Source: Alphaproteobacteria bacterium bin52 (GTDB lineage: Bacteria; Pseudomonadota; Alphaproteobacteria; Thalassobaculales; Thalassobaculaceae). Taken from it: a stretch of 64,000 bases of DNA. The DNA lies in NCBI GenBank assembly GCA_002238645.1, contig MPMT01000004.1, positions 1 through 64,000 on the forward strand, written 5' to 3'. A model generated the notes under the pieces. It did not search any database and was not told the origin of the DNA. It was given only the letters and a program-made list of their open reading frames with translations. Every line of letters starts with the position of its first letter. The stretch's first letter is position 1. Position numbers and translations under genes: made by a program. Shown one piece after another: positions 40,872-46,505 of the stretch.

Positions 40872-41249
40872 TCAGTCGCGGCTCCGGAAGCGATAGTCCG
40901 GCCGGGTATGGGGCGTCTGCCGGTAGGCGTTCGCATCAGTGCACCGGATTTCCCGCCACAGTCGCAGTGCCAGGTCGAACTCGCGCTCCGCCAGGGCCAC
41001 CACGGCGAGCAGTTCCAGGGACGCACGCGACCTGTGAAGGTGACATGCCCGTTCGGCATATGCCCGTGCCTTGCACATGTCTTCCGGTCCGGAAGCCCTG
41101 GACACTTCGCGGGCGCCACGCTGTCGCCACCATGCCGCAGTTCGTTCCACTGCCCGCATCTCGCGCAGATCGGTGTTGCAACGACGGCAGAACAGGTCCT
41201 CGACGGCCCGGGTGCCACAGGTCGGGCATTGAAGCGCCACCTGACTCAC
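40872..41249 (-). CDS. zinc-ribbon protein of the accessory Hsp70 cassette
   Basis: 125 aa. The N-terminal zinc ribbon is CPTC (8-11) and CRRC (21-24). It is followed by about 90 residues of helices ([59 protein letters not shown]), which look like two TPR-type pairs. Its start ATG overlaps the Hsp70 stop (ATGA), so it is the coupled last gene of the cassette. It may be a client or membrane adaptor for the chaperone; function unknown. Confidence 0.65.
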
Positions 41250-42994
41250 TCCAGGTAGAACAGGATCTCGTCAAGGTTCTGGCGGATCATTTCCGCATCA
41301 TCGCTGCGCCTCTCGCTCACGGCATTCCTCGCCTGCGCGATCAGAGCCGAGATCTCCTCACGATCGGCGGTGGACGCGTCATCGAGGATTCGCGTGGCCC
41401 GCATCAGGGTGTCTTCCATAGCCTCAGATGCGGTGCCGGACGCGGCGTCAGCGTCGCTGCTCACGGAGGCGTCCGCCAGTGGTTGCCAGAGCGTCTCGAG
41501 ACGCTGGCGAGAGGCTTCGATAGCGTCACGATCATTCAGGGCGTTCTCGACCACACCGTTGATCTCTCGACCTGTCGCCCGTTCCACCAGATGGATCTTC
41601 AGCAGCCCATCAAGATCGAGATGATAGGTACACAGCAGTCCCTGCTCGTACGCAGCCTCGCTCTGCAACAGTCCCTCGAACAGGAACGACCCGATTTCGA
41701 CATTCTTCAGGGCATCGGGATCCTCGCCTTGATAGATCTTGAATTCGACACTGTGCTGCTCTTCGAACATCTTGAAGAACGGTTCGGTCCTGCTCGCGGG
41801 CAGTCTGCTGTTACGTCGGATGAGAGGAACAAACTGGTGCGTGTAGGGTTGGCCGTAGAGCTCACCGACCATGCTGGTACCGAAGGTATACGGCGTGACG
41901 TCGACCAAGACCGCCTCCATATCCAGGCCCATCTCCATTCCGGCCTGAACTCCCGCACCAAGTGCGACACAAAGGTCCGGATCGATTTCGCCGTGAGGTT
42001 CTTGGCCCAGACGCTCGGCCAAGAGCCGCGTGACGCGCGGAATGCGCGTCGATCCGCCAACCAGCAGGACACGGTCAAGTTGGCTGGGGCGCACATCGGC
42101 ATCGTTCAGCGCCATGGTGACGGATCGCATGGTCTTGGACAGCAGCTCATCGATGCCGTGTTCGAATTCGGCCTGGTCAAGTTCGAGGGACAGATGCTTC
42201 GCCTCACCGTCGATCACGGCGACGTGATCTTCCTCGATCCGCACATAGGGCTGGTCTGACAGCTCGATCTTGGCCTGTTCGGCAGCCCGACGCAGTCGTG
42301 CCTGTACGACCCTGTCGTCACCGACTTCGGCCTTACCCATGTCCTTGAGCTCCTGGTTGAGCCTGTCGACAATGATCTGGTCAAAGTCGTCACCGCCCAG
42401 ATGGTTGTCTCCGGTGGAGGAGAGCACTTCGACCACCCCGTCCTCGATCTGCACGACCGAGACGTCGAAGGTTCCGCCACCGAGGTCGTAGACCAGAACT
42501 TTGCGAGTATCCTCTCCGCCGCCTTCGTAGCTGAGGGCTGCGGCAGTGGGCTCGTTGATGATCCGCACCACATCAAGCCCGGCAATCGCGCCTGCCTCCC
42601 GAGTGGATTGTCGCTGCACGTCGGTAAAGTATGCCGGAACAGTAATGACCGCCCTGCCGACATCATGGCCGAGTGCACGTGAAGCCCTCTCGCGCAATGC
42701 CTTGAGAATGAAGGCCGAGATCTCCTGCGGCAGATACGTGCCGGAGCCCATGGCGATCGGCTCGGCAGAGCCCATGAGGCGCTTGACGGAAACAACTGTC
42801 CTGTCGGGCGCCGCTGCCCATTGGTTGCGGGCTTGTTGTCCGACGATGATGGCGCCCGCTTCATCCACTCCGACACATGAAGGCAACAGTGCCTCACCGC
42901 CTTCACGCACAACCTCTGGCCTGCCATTGCGTACGATTGCCACCTCGGAGTTCGTAGTGCCAAGATCGATTCCGATGATCGTTTCCGCGTTCAT
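41246..42994 (-). CDS. Hsp70-family chaperone (accessory DnaK/HscC-like)
   Basis: 582 aa, shorter than DnaK (about 640). ATPase that binds exposed peptides. The phosphate-1 motif IDLGTTNS is at 9-16, NEPTAAAL near 146-153, [15 protein letters not shown] near 170-184, and the adenosine motif [11 protein letters not shown] near 306-316. The substrate-binding beta domain begins [11 protein letters not shown]. The C-terminus is a coiled coil with no lid extension like DnaK's EEVD-type tail. AGGAAGG precedes the start. Fourth gene in the cassette; 22 bp after grpE-like, and coupled to the zinc-ribbon gene. It is not the housekeeping DnaK (no dnaJ beside it in the usual order). Confidence 0.9.
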
Positions 42995-43016: not shown

Positions 43017-43673
43017 CTAAAGGCGGTTCACGATGACTTCCGCAAGCTGCAGCACTTCATCGCCGCGGATGTACCCGCACTGCAGTTCCTCCACCACAAA
43101 CCCGTCGGGAACATTGTCGATCCGACGAGCTTCCACAGCATGCATGACGCGTGGATCAAACAGCTTTCCGATGGTTTCGAGGCGAACGACGCCAAATCCG
43201 GAAAGCATGCGATCAAAGCGTCGAAGTGCAATTCCGTAGCCTTCGGCCACGCCGTCGATGCCGCGCGGGTGCCGGACCAGGAACCCGCGACGTTTACTGA
43301 CCTCCTCCGCCGCCGCCAGGCCCCGCGCCAGGACGTCGTACAGATCTAGCATCGAGCGCAGACACCGGTTTTCGGCGGCGCGGGTCGTACGCTGTTCGAA
43401 GGCCGTCAGCTCGCGCCCGTGCACCGTCATCGACTCGACCGCCGTATCGTAGCGCTCCACTGCCCGCGCGAGTTCCCGTCCGGCCTTTGCCTGTTCGCGG
43501 TTTTGCAGGCGAAGTTCCTGACGCAGGGCCGCGAACTCCGCGTAGAGATCTCTCAGATCCGGTTCCGGAGGGGACGGCTCGAAACCTGTCGCATCAGCCT
43601 GGCTGCAGGCATGGATCCAGCACCGGAAATCGTCGAGGATCCCGTCCTTCCAGTCGGTGACCGGTTCAGTCAT
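43017..43673 (-). CDS. GrpE-like nucleotide-exchange factor
   Basis: 218 aa. A long N-terminal helix (DLYAEFAALRQELRLQNREQAKAGRELARAVERYDTAVES) as in GrpE, then a helical bundle around LDLYDVLARGLAAAEEV and a C-terminal beta wing: VRLETIGKLFDPRVMHAVEA, then GFVVEELQCGYIRGDEVLQLAEVIVN, matching the GrpE pattern (FDP.xHxA, GY.xGDxVLRxAxV). It would release ADP from the Hsp70 downstream. Its start overlaps the J-protein stop by eight bases. Sequence is divergent from housekeeping GrpE, so it is probably dedicated to this Hsp70. Confidence 0.8.
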   Translation of the reverse strand: MTEPVTDWKDGILDDFRCWIHACSQADATGFEPSPPEPDLRDLYAEFAALRQELRLQNREQAKAGRELARAVERYDTAVESMTVHGRELTAFEQRTTRAAENRCLRSMLDLYDVLARGLAAAEEVSKRRGFLVRHPRGIDGVAEGYGIALRRFDRMLSGFGVVRLETIGKLFDPRVMHAVEARRIDNVPDGFVVEELQCGYIRGDEVLQLAEVIVNRL

Positions 43674-43971
43674 CCCGAAGCCCTTCCGCCACCAACAGTG
43701 ACTGAAGGCCAGTGGTCAGGTGCCGTTCCCCACGTGCCTTGAGCAGCGCATCGAGCGCCAGTTCGCAATCCTTGTACTGGCCAATACCGTACAGGGCCGA
43801 GTGCACGCGGGAACGTTCGTCACTCAGCGCCTCCCAGGCCGTCATGATCTGCTGAGCGCGATCCGGTTCCCGGCTTGGAGGGTGGGCACGGATCAGGGTG
43901 AGGTAGCGTTTCCTGATCTCCTGGCGCGAAGCGGTGGGCGGAAGACCAAGGACAAGATAGGGCATCAGCAT
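43666..43971 (-). CDS. short J-domain protein with HPP in place of HPD
   Basis: 101 aa from ATG 43971. The helix I/II pattern MPYLVLGLPPTASRQEIRKRYLTLIRAHP fits a J domain, and helix III is AQQIMTAWEALSDERSRVHSALYG. The loop that is HPD in J proteins, and is essential for ATPase stimulation, reads HPP here (30-32), followed by SREPDR. An alternative start (TTG 43983) lies four codons upstream. HPP-type J proteins are seen beside Hsp70/GrpE operons, so this may be a working variant, but that is an inference. The remaining 40 residues are helical with no G/F or zinc-finger region. Confidence 0.75.
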   Translation of the reverse strand: MLMPYLVLGLPPTASRQEIRKRYLTLIRAHPPSREPDRAQQIMTAWEALSDERSRVHSALYGIGQYKDCELALDALLKARGERHLTTGLQSLLVAEGLRDD

Positions 43972-44114: not shown

Positions 44115-46505
44115 TCAAATAAAATTCGCAAGTTCCTCGGCGAATACGTCGTACGCCATCGGACCGAAGAGGTCCGGATCGGGGTATTCGAGCCCATCGA
44201 AGTTGAAACTGAGCAGAGCCTCACGCAGTCTGCCGCTTGCCCGGCGTGCCATGCGCGCCGCACACGTCCTCAGTGTCTCACGCTCGGACGGGCTTGCACC
44301 ATCAAGGGCTTCGCGGAAACGCTTTGAGTTCCAGTCGTCACCAGACTGGTAGCGGATCACCGCCAGATACAGCAGGAGTGGCCGGTTGCGCTCGCCCTCG
44401 TCCGCGCTGGTCAGTCGGCGCGTGATCTCGGAGCGGACCACTGGACTGACGTTATCGCACTCAAGCAGGGTATCGAAGGCGTCCAGCAGCTGATCACCGT
44501 CCAGCCGAATCAGGATCGCGGGCCAGCAGTGGCGCAGGATCGGCGCGATGTTGAGTCTCTTGTAGAGAACCTGAAGGTCACGGGCCAGCGGGGTAATCAG
44601 CCCGGCCGCCTCGCTGGCGTCGAGGCCGTCGATGACTGCCGCCTTCGCGGCCAGCATGCGGCGCAGTCCGGCCGCCATTTCCGGTAGCACGATGTGTAGG
44701 TGGCTGTTCTCGTCCAGATCGTGGATCAACAGGACCAGCATCCTGATCTGGCCGGAAGGCGCAAGTCGTTCGATATGTGGCGCTGCAATGGCGACCGCAT
44801 CTCCGCTGGATGACACGATCTCCAGCAGAATGCGCTTTGCGGCGATAATGTCGGCGAGCCCTGATCGGTTCAGCGCCGCCGCCCGATCGATGTCCCGGTC
44901 CGCCAGTTCGAACCGTCCGCGGTTACGGCTCCGGTCAGAGGAGTTGAGGAATCCCGTGGCCTGCATGTCCAGTATGCGCTCGTCATACGGAGCCCGGCGC
45001 CGTGCCTCCCTCAGAGAGGTTTCGGCGCGGCGGTGTGCATTGGACGAAAAATGCAGCCGGGTCAGTTCGACATGGGGTTCGGCATCCTCGGGAAACTGGG
45101 CCGCCATGCGTTCGAGCACGTTCCGCTTGCGCGCCTTCTCCGCGTTTCCCCAACCGGGAAGGTCGATCAGGAACCGGTATCCGTCCCGGTTGTCGGGATC
45201 GGCGGCGAGGCTCGATTCCATCAGGTCGGCACAGAGCGAAAGCCCCTCATTCGGCTGGTGTCCCAGCAATTTCGACACTGTTTTCTTCATACTGGGGGAC
45301 AGCATATAGATCCTTCTGGAGCGACGGCCGATTCTGGCGAGAGTATCGAACACTCTGGCCCGAACCAGGTCGTGGTCTGTCTGGAACGGGAACTCCGTCG
45401 GAAGGCGGGAAAGGAGAATTTCCGCAGGAGCAGGGTTCCAGGCGATCAGATCCGCTTGCTGAAGTGCGTGGTCAACCCGTGCCAGTACACCCAGCACCCG
45501 CTTCGGCGGCAGGGTCCGCTGCGCCAGTTCGGACACGGTGTGCGGAGCAATATATTCCTGCGCGGCGGCGATACCCGCAATCGTGATCAGATCCACTAGG
45601 GCCGGAACCGGATCGTCAGGGCAGAGCGCCCGTGCCAGGCGGTTGGAGAGGTCGATGATGGTACGCGGGCGTCCGTTCCTCTTCAGGAGGGCGCAGAGGT
45701 CCCGGCCCAGCCTGGATATGGTGATGCTGTCCGTGCCCAGCGCCGCCTGTACCCGTGCAGATCCCTCCCGGCCGCCGCCCCGTCCACTGACGCGACGGAG
45801 TTCGGCGAGAGTATCGGCAAGGACGAAGTCGTCGGGAAGCTCGTCGAGAAACCCGGCCAGCGCCCTGTTGTCACCGTCGCTGTATGAACTCATCGCGCCG
45901 CAGAACAGGCTCCAGGCGCGGTAGGGAGACTGCGGCGGCAGGCGACGCAGTTTTTCGGTGCAGGAGTGCCAGTCACCACGATCCATGGCCTCGACACTGC
46001 CGATGACATCGTCTGCGTTCCGCTTCAGTGCAGTATTCTCGTCGAGCGCAGCGAGCGCATCCCAGCACCGGTGGATCACCAGTTGATCGGCCAGACAGCG
46101 CTCGATATCGCTATTCGACGCCCCCGACTGTCCTGACGCCGCATACGCAGCGATCGCGTCACTTCCCTCAAGGTGCTTCAGATAAAGGTGCAGATCCTCC
46201 TCGCCCAGATGGTCGGCACGAACGGCCCCGCGGTGTTCCGCCGCCCGTGAGCGCATGAGTGTCGCTTCCCTTTTCTGACCCTGCCGGTCGAATTCCCGCG
46301 CCCTGCGAGTGAACGCGCAAAATCGCAGCAAGGCGCTGTCGAGACTTTCGTTCTTGCCGGCCGGAAGCCGTTTCAATACAGCAAGGGTGGCCCGTGCATC
46401 GTTGCGGTGAAAGAGCCGTCGCGCTTCCCGAATGACGTCGGCGTTGGTCTTCAGTACCGGGGTCTTTTTCCGGTTCTTTCCGCGATTCCTGTTTCGTGCT
46501 GCCAT
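44115..46505 (-). CDS. large helical-repeat (TPR/HEAT-like) protein of the Hsp70 cassette
   Basis: 796 aa. First gene of the cassette. After a basic tail (MAARNRNRGKNRKKTP) the sequence is almost all helix. Two weak TPR-like zones are seen: residues 25-110 (DARATLAVLKRLPA ... EFDRQGQKREATLMRSRAAEHRG) and 440-560 (NVLERMAAQFPEDAEPHVELTRLHFSSNAHRRAETSLREARRRAPYDERIL). No signal peptide or membrane segment. I recognise no named family. Large TPR proteins often act as a client-binding or scaffold component next to Hsp70s; here the only support is the operon. The start has only a weak ribosome site (GGCGGTCCGGA). Confidence 0.75.
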   Translation of the reverse strand: MAARNRNRGKNRKKTPVLKTNADVIREARRLFHRNDARATLAVLKRLPAGKNESLDSALLRFCAFTRRAREFDRQGQKREATLMRSRAAEHRGAVRADHLGEEDLHLYLKHLEGSDAIAAYAASGQSGASNSDIERCLADQLVIHRCWDALAALDENTALKRNADDVIGSVEAMDRGDWHSCTEKLRRLPPQSPYRAWSLFCGAMSSYSDGDNRALAGFLDELPDDFVLADTLAELRRVSGRGGGREGSARVQAALGTDSITISRLGRDLCALLKRNGRPRTIIDLSNRLARALCPDDPVPALVDLITIAGIAAAQEYIAPHTVSELAQRTLPPKRVLGVLARVDHALQQADLIAWNPAPAEILLSRLPTEFPFQTDHDLVRARVFDTLARIGRRSRRIYMLSPSMKKTVSKLLGHQPNEGLSLCADLMESSLAADPDNRDGYRFLIDLPGWGNAEKARKRNVLERMAAQFPEDAEPHVELTRLHFSSNAHRRAETSLREARRRAPYDERILDMQATGFLNSSDRSRNRGRFELADRDIDRAAALNRSGLADIIAAKRILLEIVSSSGDAVAIAAPHIERLAPSGQIRMLVLLIHDLDENSHLHIVLPEMAAGLRRMLAAKAAVIDGLDASEAAGLITPLARDLQVLYKRLNIAPILRHCWPAILIRLDGDQLLDAFDTLLECDNVSPVVRSEITRRLTSADEGERNRPLLLYLAVIRYQSGDDWNSKRFREALDGASPSERETLRTCAARMARRASGRLREALLSFNFDGLEYPDPDLFGPMAYDVFAEELANFI

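Follow-up and report, generated by a model that had tools for sequence, protein, structure and literature searches.

A family of J-domain proteins without the HPD histidine, likely still docking on an HscC-like Hsp70 of their own

A five-gene chaperone cassette

The window analyzed here is a 64,000-nucleotide stretch of Alphaproteobacteria bacterium bin52 (contig MPMT01000004.1, positions 1 to 64,000). It includes five consecutive genes on the minus strand, for a TPR-like protein, a J-domain protein, a GrpE-like protein, an Hsp70, and a zinc-ribbon-like protein. Their coordinates, and those of the codons at the center of this analysis, are as follows.

40872..41249, minus strand: small CxxC...CxRC zinc-ribbon-like protein (many related cassettes have a similar one after Hsp70)
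41246..42994, minus strand: Hsp70 of 582 aa, in a clade sister to HscC, J-docking residues kept (Pfam HSP70 2.6e-131, alignment, tree)
43017..43673, minus strand: GrpE-like nucleotide exchange factor (Pfam GrpE 1.7e-20; adjoins the J gene in related loci)
43666..43971, minus strand: J-domain protein with HPD replaced by PPS, start perhaps at 43965 (Pfam, AlphaFold model, alignment, DNA)
43873..43881, minus strand: codons CCT CCA AGC for Pro-Pro-Ser, aligned with DnaJ His33-Pro34-Asp35 (ungapped helix-II alignment; DNA)
43884-43882, minus strand: CAC codon, a His at the position of DnaJ Tyr32, preceding PPS (alignment, DNA)
44115..46505, minus strand: TPR-like protein of 796 aa, upstream of the J gene (weak TPR match; position)

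The J and GrpE genes overlap by 8 nt (43666-43673), and the Hsp70 and zinc-ribbon genes by 4 nt. J, GrpE, and Hsp70 occur in a row at 47 non-redundant loci in addition to the window, so that an earlier suggestion made from the sequence alone, that the chaperone set is maintained together, is well supported. The same genome has a complete canonical DnaK/DnaJ/GrpE, and four of its J proteins, counting DnaJ, have an intact HPD; thus the cassette is an additional system.

TPR matches are present in most of the relatives tested, and many related cassettes have a protein of 760-905 aa in this position; little of the window's TPR-like protein (44115-46505) is covered by Pfam. The zinc-ribbon-like proteins (window 40872-41249; L097:9757-10062; L072:6620-6973) have the pattern CPxC...CxRCGxDL and an alanine-rich, probably helical tail. 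The protein with this pattern that comes after Hsp70 in many cassettes has no clear Pfam family.

The nearest Hsp70 is that of a Desulfobacterium, from another phylum, and it is only ~53% identical; a search of 35 other genomes of the window's order found the cassette in none of them. This distribution is compatible with lateral transfer. Alternatively, the contig may be misbinned. The viral contigs that we searched have no relative of the cassette, and the PADLOC models of anti-phage defense have no match among the five cassette proteins. The GrpE matches on plasmids were discarded because they belong to canonical or DnaK2-like loci; the locus in Methylorubrum is a different one from this cassette.

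Which residues replace HPD?

The J protein is a J domain of 99-101 aa, and its open reading frame runs from 43971 to 43666 on the minus strand. Because the relatives begin at a Met just ahead of a P-[YF] motif, the true start may be 43965. Pfam, the structural model, and Foldseek agree in giving it the helix II / loop / helix III fold of a J domain. The Pfam DnaJ match is above the cutoff (1.9e-8). The AlphaFold model has a pLDDT of ~90 or more across residues 1-50, with helices at 14-27 and 34-48, so that helix II stops at residue 27 (DnaJ Lys31) and helix III starts from residue 34. The top Foldseek matches of the model are J domains, 5nro_B among them, none of them with an E-value below 0.001. 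What the protein does not have is an HPD: the motif is PPS in the window, and [P/S]P[D/E] in 52 relatives.

The sequence-only reading had already recognized a J domain without the canonical HPD, and to that extent it was right. It had described the replacement, from IRAHPPSREPDR, as HPD to HPP, and this register is off by one: the His of "HPP" corresponds to Tyr32, and HPD is replaced by PPS. The translation does include RAHPPSREPDR, and the codons at the motif are CAC CCT CCA AGC. The helix II alignment to E. coli DnaJ has no gaps (EIRKRYLTLIRAH-PPS-R in the window, EIRKAYKRLAMKY-HPD-R in DnaJ), as can be followed residue by residue in E-I-R-K-R-Y-L-T-L-I-R-A-H-P-P-S-R versus E-I-R-K-A-Y-K-R-L-A-M-K-Y-H-P-D-R. 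Therefore, His33 is replaced by Pro, Pro34 is kept, and Asp35 is replaced by Ser. The relatives support this register, as they carry H, F, C, Y, or W at the position of Tyr32. The Ser35 codon, AGC, is two substitutions away from GAC and three from GAA or GAG, and the frame is intact; it takes more than a single miscall to produce this serine.

Is the loss of His33 a property of the family?

We collected relatives in two ways. A scan of named genomes, with patterns built from a subset of the J alignment, resulted in 45 loci, distributed over alpha-, beta-, gamma-, and deltaproteobacteria, Magnetococcales, Planctomycetota, Verrucomicrobiota, Acidobacteriota, and further groups. Since one of its two patterns favored PP[DE], the unbiased set is the other one, obtained by searching 398 genomes of the phylum using the Hsp70 alone, which is free of any J-motif bias and added 15 further cassettes. 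In all 15 of them the J gene adjoins GrpE and His33 is absent. After dropping duplicates and six loci without a cassette, we kept 52 relatives, 47 of which have GrpE and Hsp70 at the same locus, while the contigs of the remaining five end too early.

Including the window, His33 is absent and Pro34 is present in 53/53 J domains. The motif counts for the 52 relatives are PPE 35, PPD 13, SPE 2, and SPD 2, with PPS only in the window. Thus every relative has D or E at residue 35, and Ser is seen there in the window alone, which is also the sole member to have lost Phe47 (Ala47). K26, the basic residue of helix II, is Leu in most family members. Mapped on the Hsp70 tree (44 cassettes), residue 35 requires 11 changes, all of them D/E exchanges apart from the one to Ser in the window; residue 33 requires 3, which are P/S exchanges, and H never appears. 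The isolates Halomonas ventosae, Thiocystis violacea, and Polaromonas glacialis share both the loss of the His and the double Pro.

Aligning the cassette homologs to ask for fixation had been proposed in the sequence-only reading, with homologs that carry HPD taken as a sign of a single mutation in the window. The alignment finds the non-HPD state fixed (His33 missing in 52/52) and HPD in none of the homologs (0/52). As far as these sequences can tell, the loss of His33 is an ancestral, fixed trait of the cassette family and not a stray mutation.

The Hsp70 side

In DnaK, the contacts of the HPD motif are those of His33 with the backbone carbonyl of L391, of Pro34 with P419, and of Asp35 with R167 and Q378 (PMC8215388). 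Has the cassette Hsp70 changed to match its unusual J protein, as had been put forward as an option? At the known contacts, we find no support for that. R167, T173, E217, V218, L391, D393, and P419 are invariant in all 47 cassette Hsp70s (window included), Q378 is kept in 44/47 and N170 in 45/47, and the catalytic K70 and T199 are kept in 47/47. With the contact residues invariant or nearly so, the Hsp70 is unchanged at the known partners of the motif. There are changes in the cassette Hsp70 outside those contacts, for instance at linker position 389 and at residue 477. D477, the partner of J Lys48, is variable among cassette Hsp70s; it is His in the window, where the J48/Hsp70-477 pair is Gln/His. 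A possible co-variation of these two positions was rejected: the Fisher p of 0.014 has no correction for ancestry, and with 6 independent pairs it is not significant.

We built a maximum likelihood tree of the cassette Hsp70s together with proteobacterial and Gram-positive DnaK, HscA, and ten HscCs. The cassette Hsp70s form one clade (100/100), sister to HscC (100/99) and outside of it, as two separate sister clades, and a quick tree agrees; both branches are long, and some mutual attraction is possible. In the alignment, the cassette Hsp70 has the HscC-type deletion in lobe I (around DnaK 76-101), an insertion in the SBD, and a shortened lid, although some other DnaKs have the lobe I deletion too (PMC8215388).

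Comparison with known systems

The closest comparison is HscC with its J proteins DjlB and DjlC. On the Hsp70 side, the two systems are sister clades, with the same 24-residue gap in lobe I, the same SBD insertion region, and the same lid gap. On the J side, they have in common a short loop, an altered HPD, and a D-P-x-x-F pattern. A precedent for a working J protein with a changed motif comes from E. coli, where DjlB and DjlC have HPE and are partners of HscC (PMC8215388, PMC13254874). In a set of 11 HscC-linked J proteins (DjlB and DjlC of E. coli, the rest from nine other genomes), the motifs are HPE 3, RPD 4, GPE 1, DVE 1, DQQ 1, and DQV 1. Since most HscC-adjacent J proteins are also without His, the loss of the histidine is common to both sister systems. 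The loop has 5 residues between positions 35 and 47 in 64/64 J domains, cassette and HscC-linked. A J-domain tree, with 59 columns too small to place the two groups, neither supports nor rejects a single clade with the HscC-linked J proteins (AU p 0.47).

The differences are also clear. The cassette has its own GrpE gene, whereas HscC is thought to do without GrpE (PMC8215388), and it has the TPR and zinc-ribbon neighbors. HscC-linked J proteins are long (open frames of ~480-990 aa) and have motifs such as HPE or RPD, while the cassette J stands alone at ~100 aa with [P/S]P[D/E]. R167 and Q378 are held more strictly in the cassette Hsp70 than in HscC.

With the canonical DnaK/DnaJ/GrpE, the cassette shares the same three types of component and the docking residues of the Hsp70. 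It differs in that its J protein has neither His33 nor any G/F, zinc, or client-binding domain and its loop is short, and in that its Hsp70 belongs to a separate clade.

A type IV (pseudo) J protein is one with a recognizable J domain in which HPD is non-conservatively replaced (PMC13254874), and this describes the J protein in the window. Type IV proteins such as Pam16 and DnaJB13 are alike in the J fold and the non-conservatively replaced motif. Unlike them, the cassette J is fixed across phyla, clustered with its own Hsp70 and GrpE, and retains Pro34 and (in the relatives) the acid at position 35; in Pam16, neither the His nor the Pro is left (DKE/DKS; PMC13254874). We rate the cassette as a variant among the known HscC-like Hsp70 systems and type IV J proteins. 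Our literature search found no paper on this cassette; the main survey of bacterial J proteins, Barriot et al. 2020, was outside the comparison and may list the family.

What does a J protein without the histidine do?

The reading that we favor, with a probability of roughly 55%, is that the J protein is a co-chaperone dedicated to a self-contained HscC-like machine, and that it likely still docks on its own Hsp70 without His33. The J protein would dock at the groove between the linker and the nucleotide-binding domain, with Pro34 packing on P419 and the acid at 35 pairing with R167 and Q378, and the hydrogen bond from His33 to the L391 linker carbonyl would be dispensed with. ATPase stimulation would perhaps be weaker or dependent on the client. 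The cassette GrpE would provide nucleotide exchange, and the TPR and zinc-ribbon proteins, we guess, might bring clients or assemble the machine. In the window copy, Ser35 might either weaken the stimulation further or bond to R167 instead.

Docking without the histidine contact fits the switching of residue 35 between D and E only, the invariant Pro34, and the untouched Hsp70 groove. The pattern at residue 35 is what one expects of selection for acidity, for which a relic that does not dock has no need. Because the relatives keep that acid, a simple loss of ATPase stimulation appears to be the less likely reading for the family. In the window copy, acid 35 and Phe47 are gone, and stimulation may have been lost; with Ser35 and Ala47 in their places, weak activity or a role as a scaffold has to be taken seriously there.

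There are points against a docking J protein. In all of the systems tested, exchanging the His for Gln or the Asp for Asn eliminated the stimulation of Hsp70 (PMC8215388), and a 2026 review has HPE as the only tolerated replacement of HPD (PMC13254874). In the alignments, K26 being mostly Leu counts against it, as do, in the window, the missing acid 35 and Phe47 and the Gln/His pair at J48 and Hsp70-477. In addition, the conserved docking site on the Hsp70 could equally serve the canonical DnaJ of the cell.

Could the cassette J be, instead, a pseudo-J protein that does not stimulate at all? It would then be a docking, scaffold, or regulatory subunit comparable to Pam16 and would link the Hsp70 with the TPR protein, leaving the triggering to an HPD J protein of the cell. 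We find this conceivable, if doubtful. Proteins with a non-conservatively replaced HPD are expected not to stimulate Hsp70 (PMC13254874), the four host HPD J proteins could provide the trigger, and the window copy is missing both His33 and Asp35. On the other hand, a pure scaffold is not expected to keep an acid at position 35 in 52/52 relatives through some ten D/E switches, or to keep Pro34 in all of them when Pam16 kept neither His nor Pro.

It is improbable that the window J alone has been decaying after a lateral transfer, in which case PPS would be drift and would tell us nothing about the family. The window is indeed the only member with Ser35 and Ala47, and its isolation within its order and the distance to its nearest relative would go along with such a history. 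However, none of the five genes is interrupted or shortened, their overlapping junctions are intact, the J core is predicted to fold confidently, and the loss of the His is family-wide. As for a base-calling or assembly error at the motif, which a draft genome of 120 contigs invites and which had been suspected around 43880, we give it hardly any weight, since the loss of His33 (all 52 relatives) and the double Pro are common to independent assemblies, isolates included, and Ser35 requires two or more substitutions.

Returning to the docking co-chaperone, a stronger version of it is one that we hold tentatively, with somewhat more doubt than confidence: a widespread, laterally moving Hsp70 machine, whose J protein would trigger hydrolysis without the histidine, using [P/S]-P-[D/E] on an unchanged groove, and for which the window would indicate that even the acid is dispensable.

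HPD counts as the most conserved sequence of J proteins, and whether replaced motifs are an accident or have been selected has been called enigmatic (PMC13254874). In several phyla, the cassette family ties a non-HPD J protein to an Hsp70 and a GrpE of its own, with the acid kept and the histidine never. As this J family comes with its own Hsp70 and GrpE, the question of accident versus selection could be addressed with three small purified proteins. The rule of chaperone biology that HPD is essential may have a natural exception.

Two minor observations concern the HscC systems themselves. Among the diverse Pseudomonadota L143-L151, the HscC-adjacent J proteins are mostly without His, and the HPE of E. 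coli seems to be in the minority in this small sample. In L146, L149, and L151, a set too small to build on, where the J protein is without the P-[D/E] core, the HscC linker residue L391 is Met, and it is Leu in seven other HscC systems.
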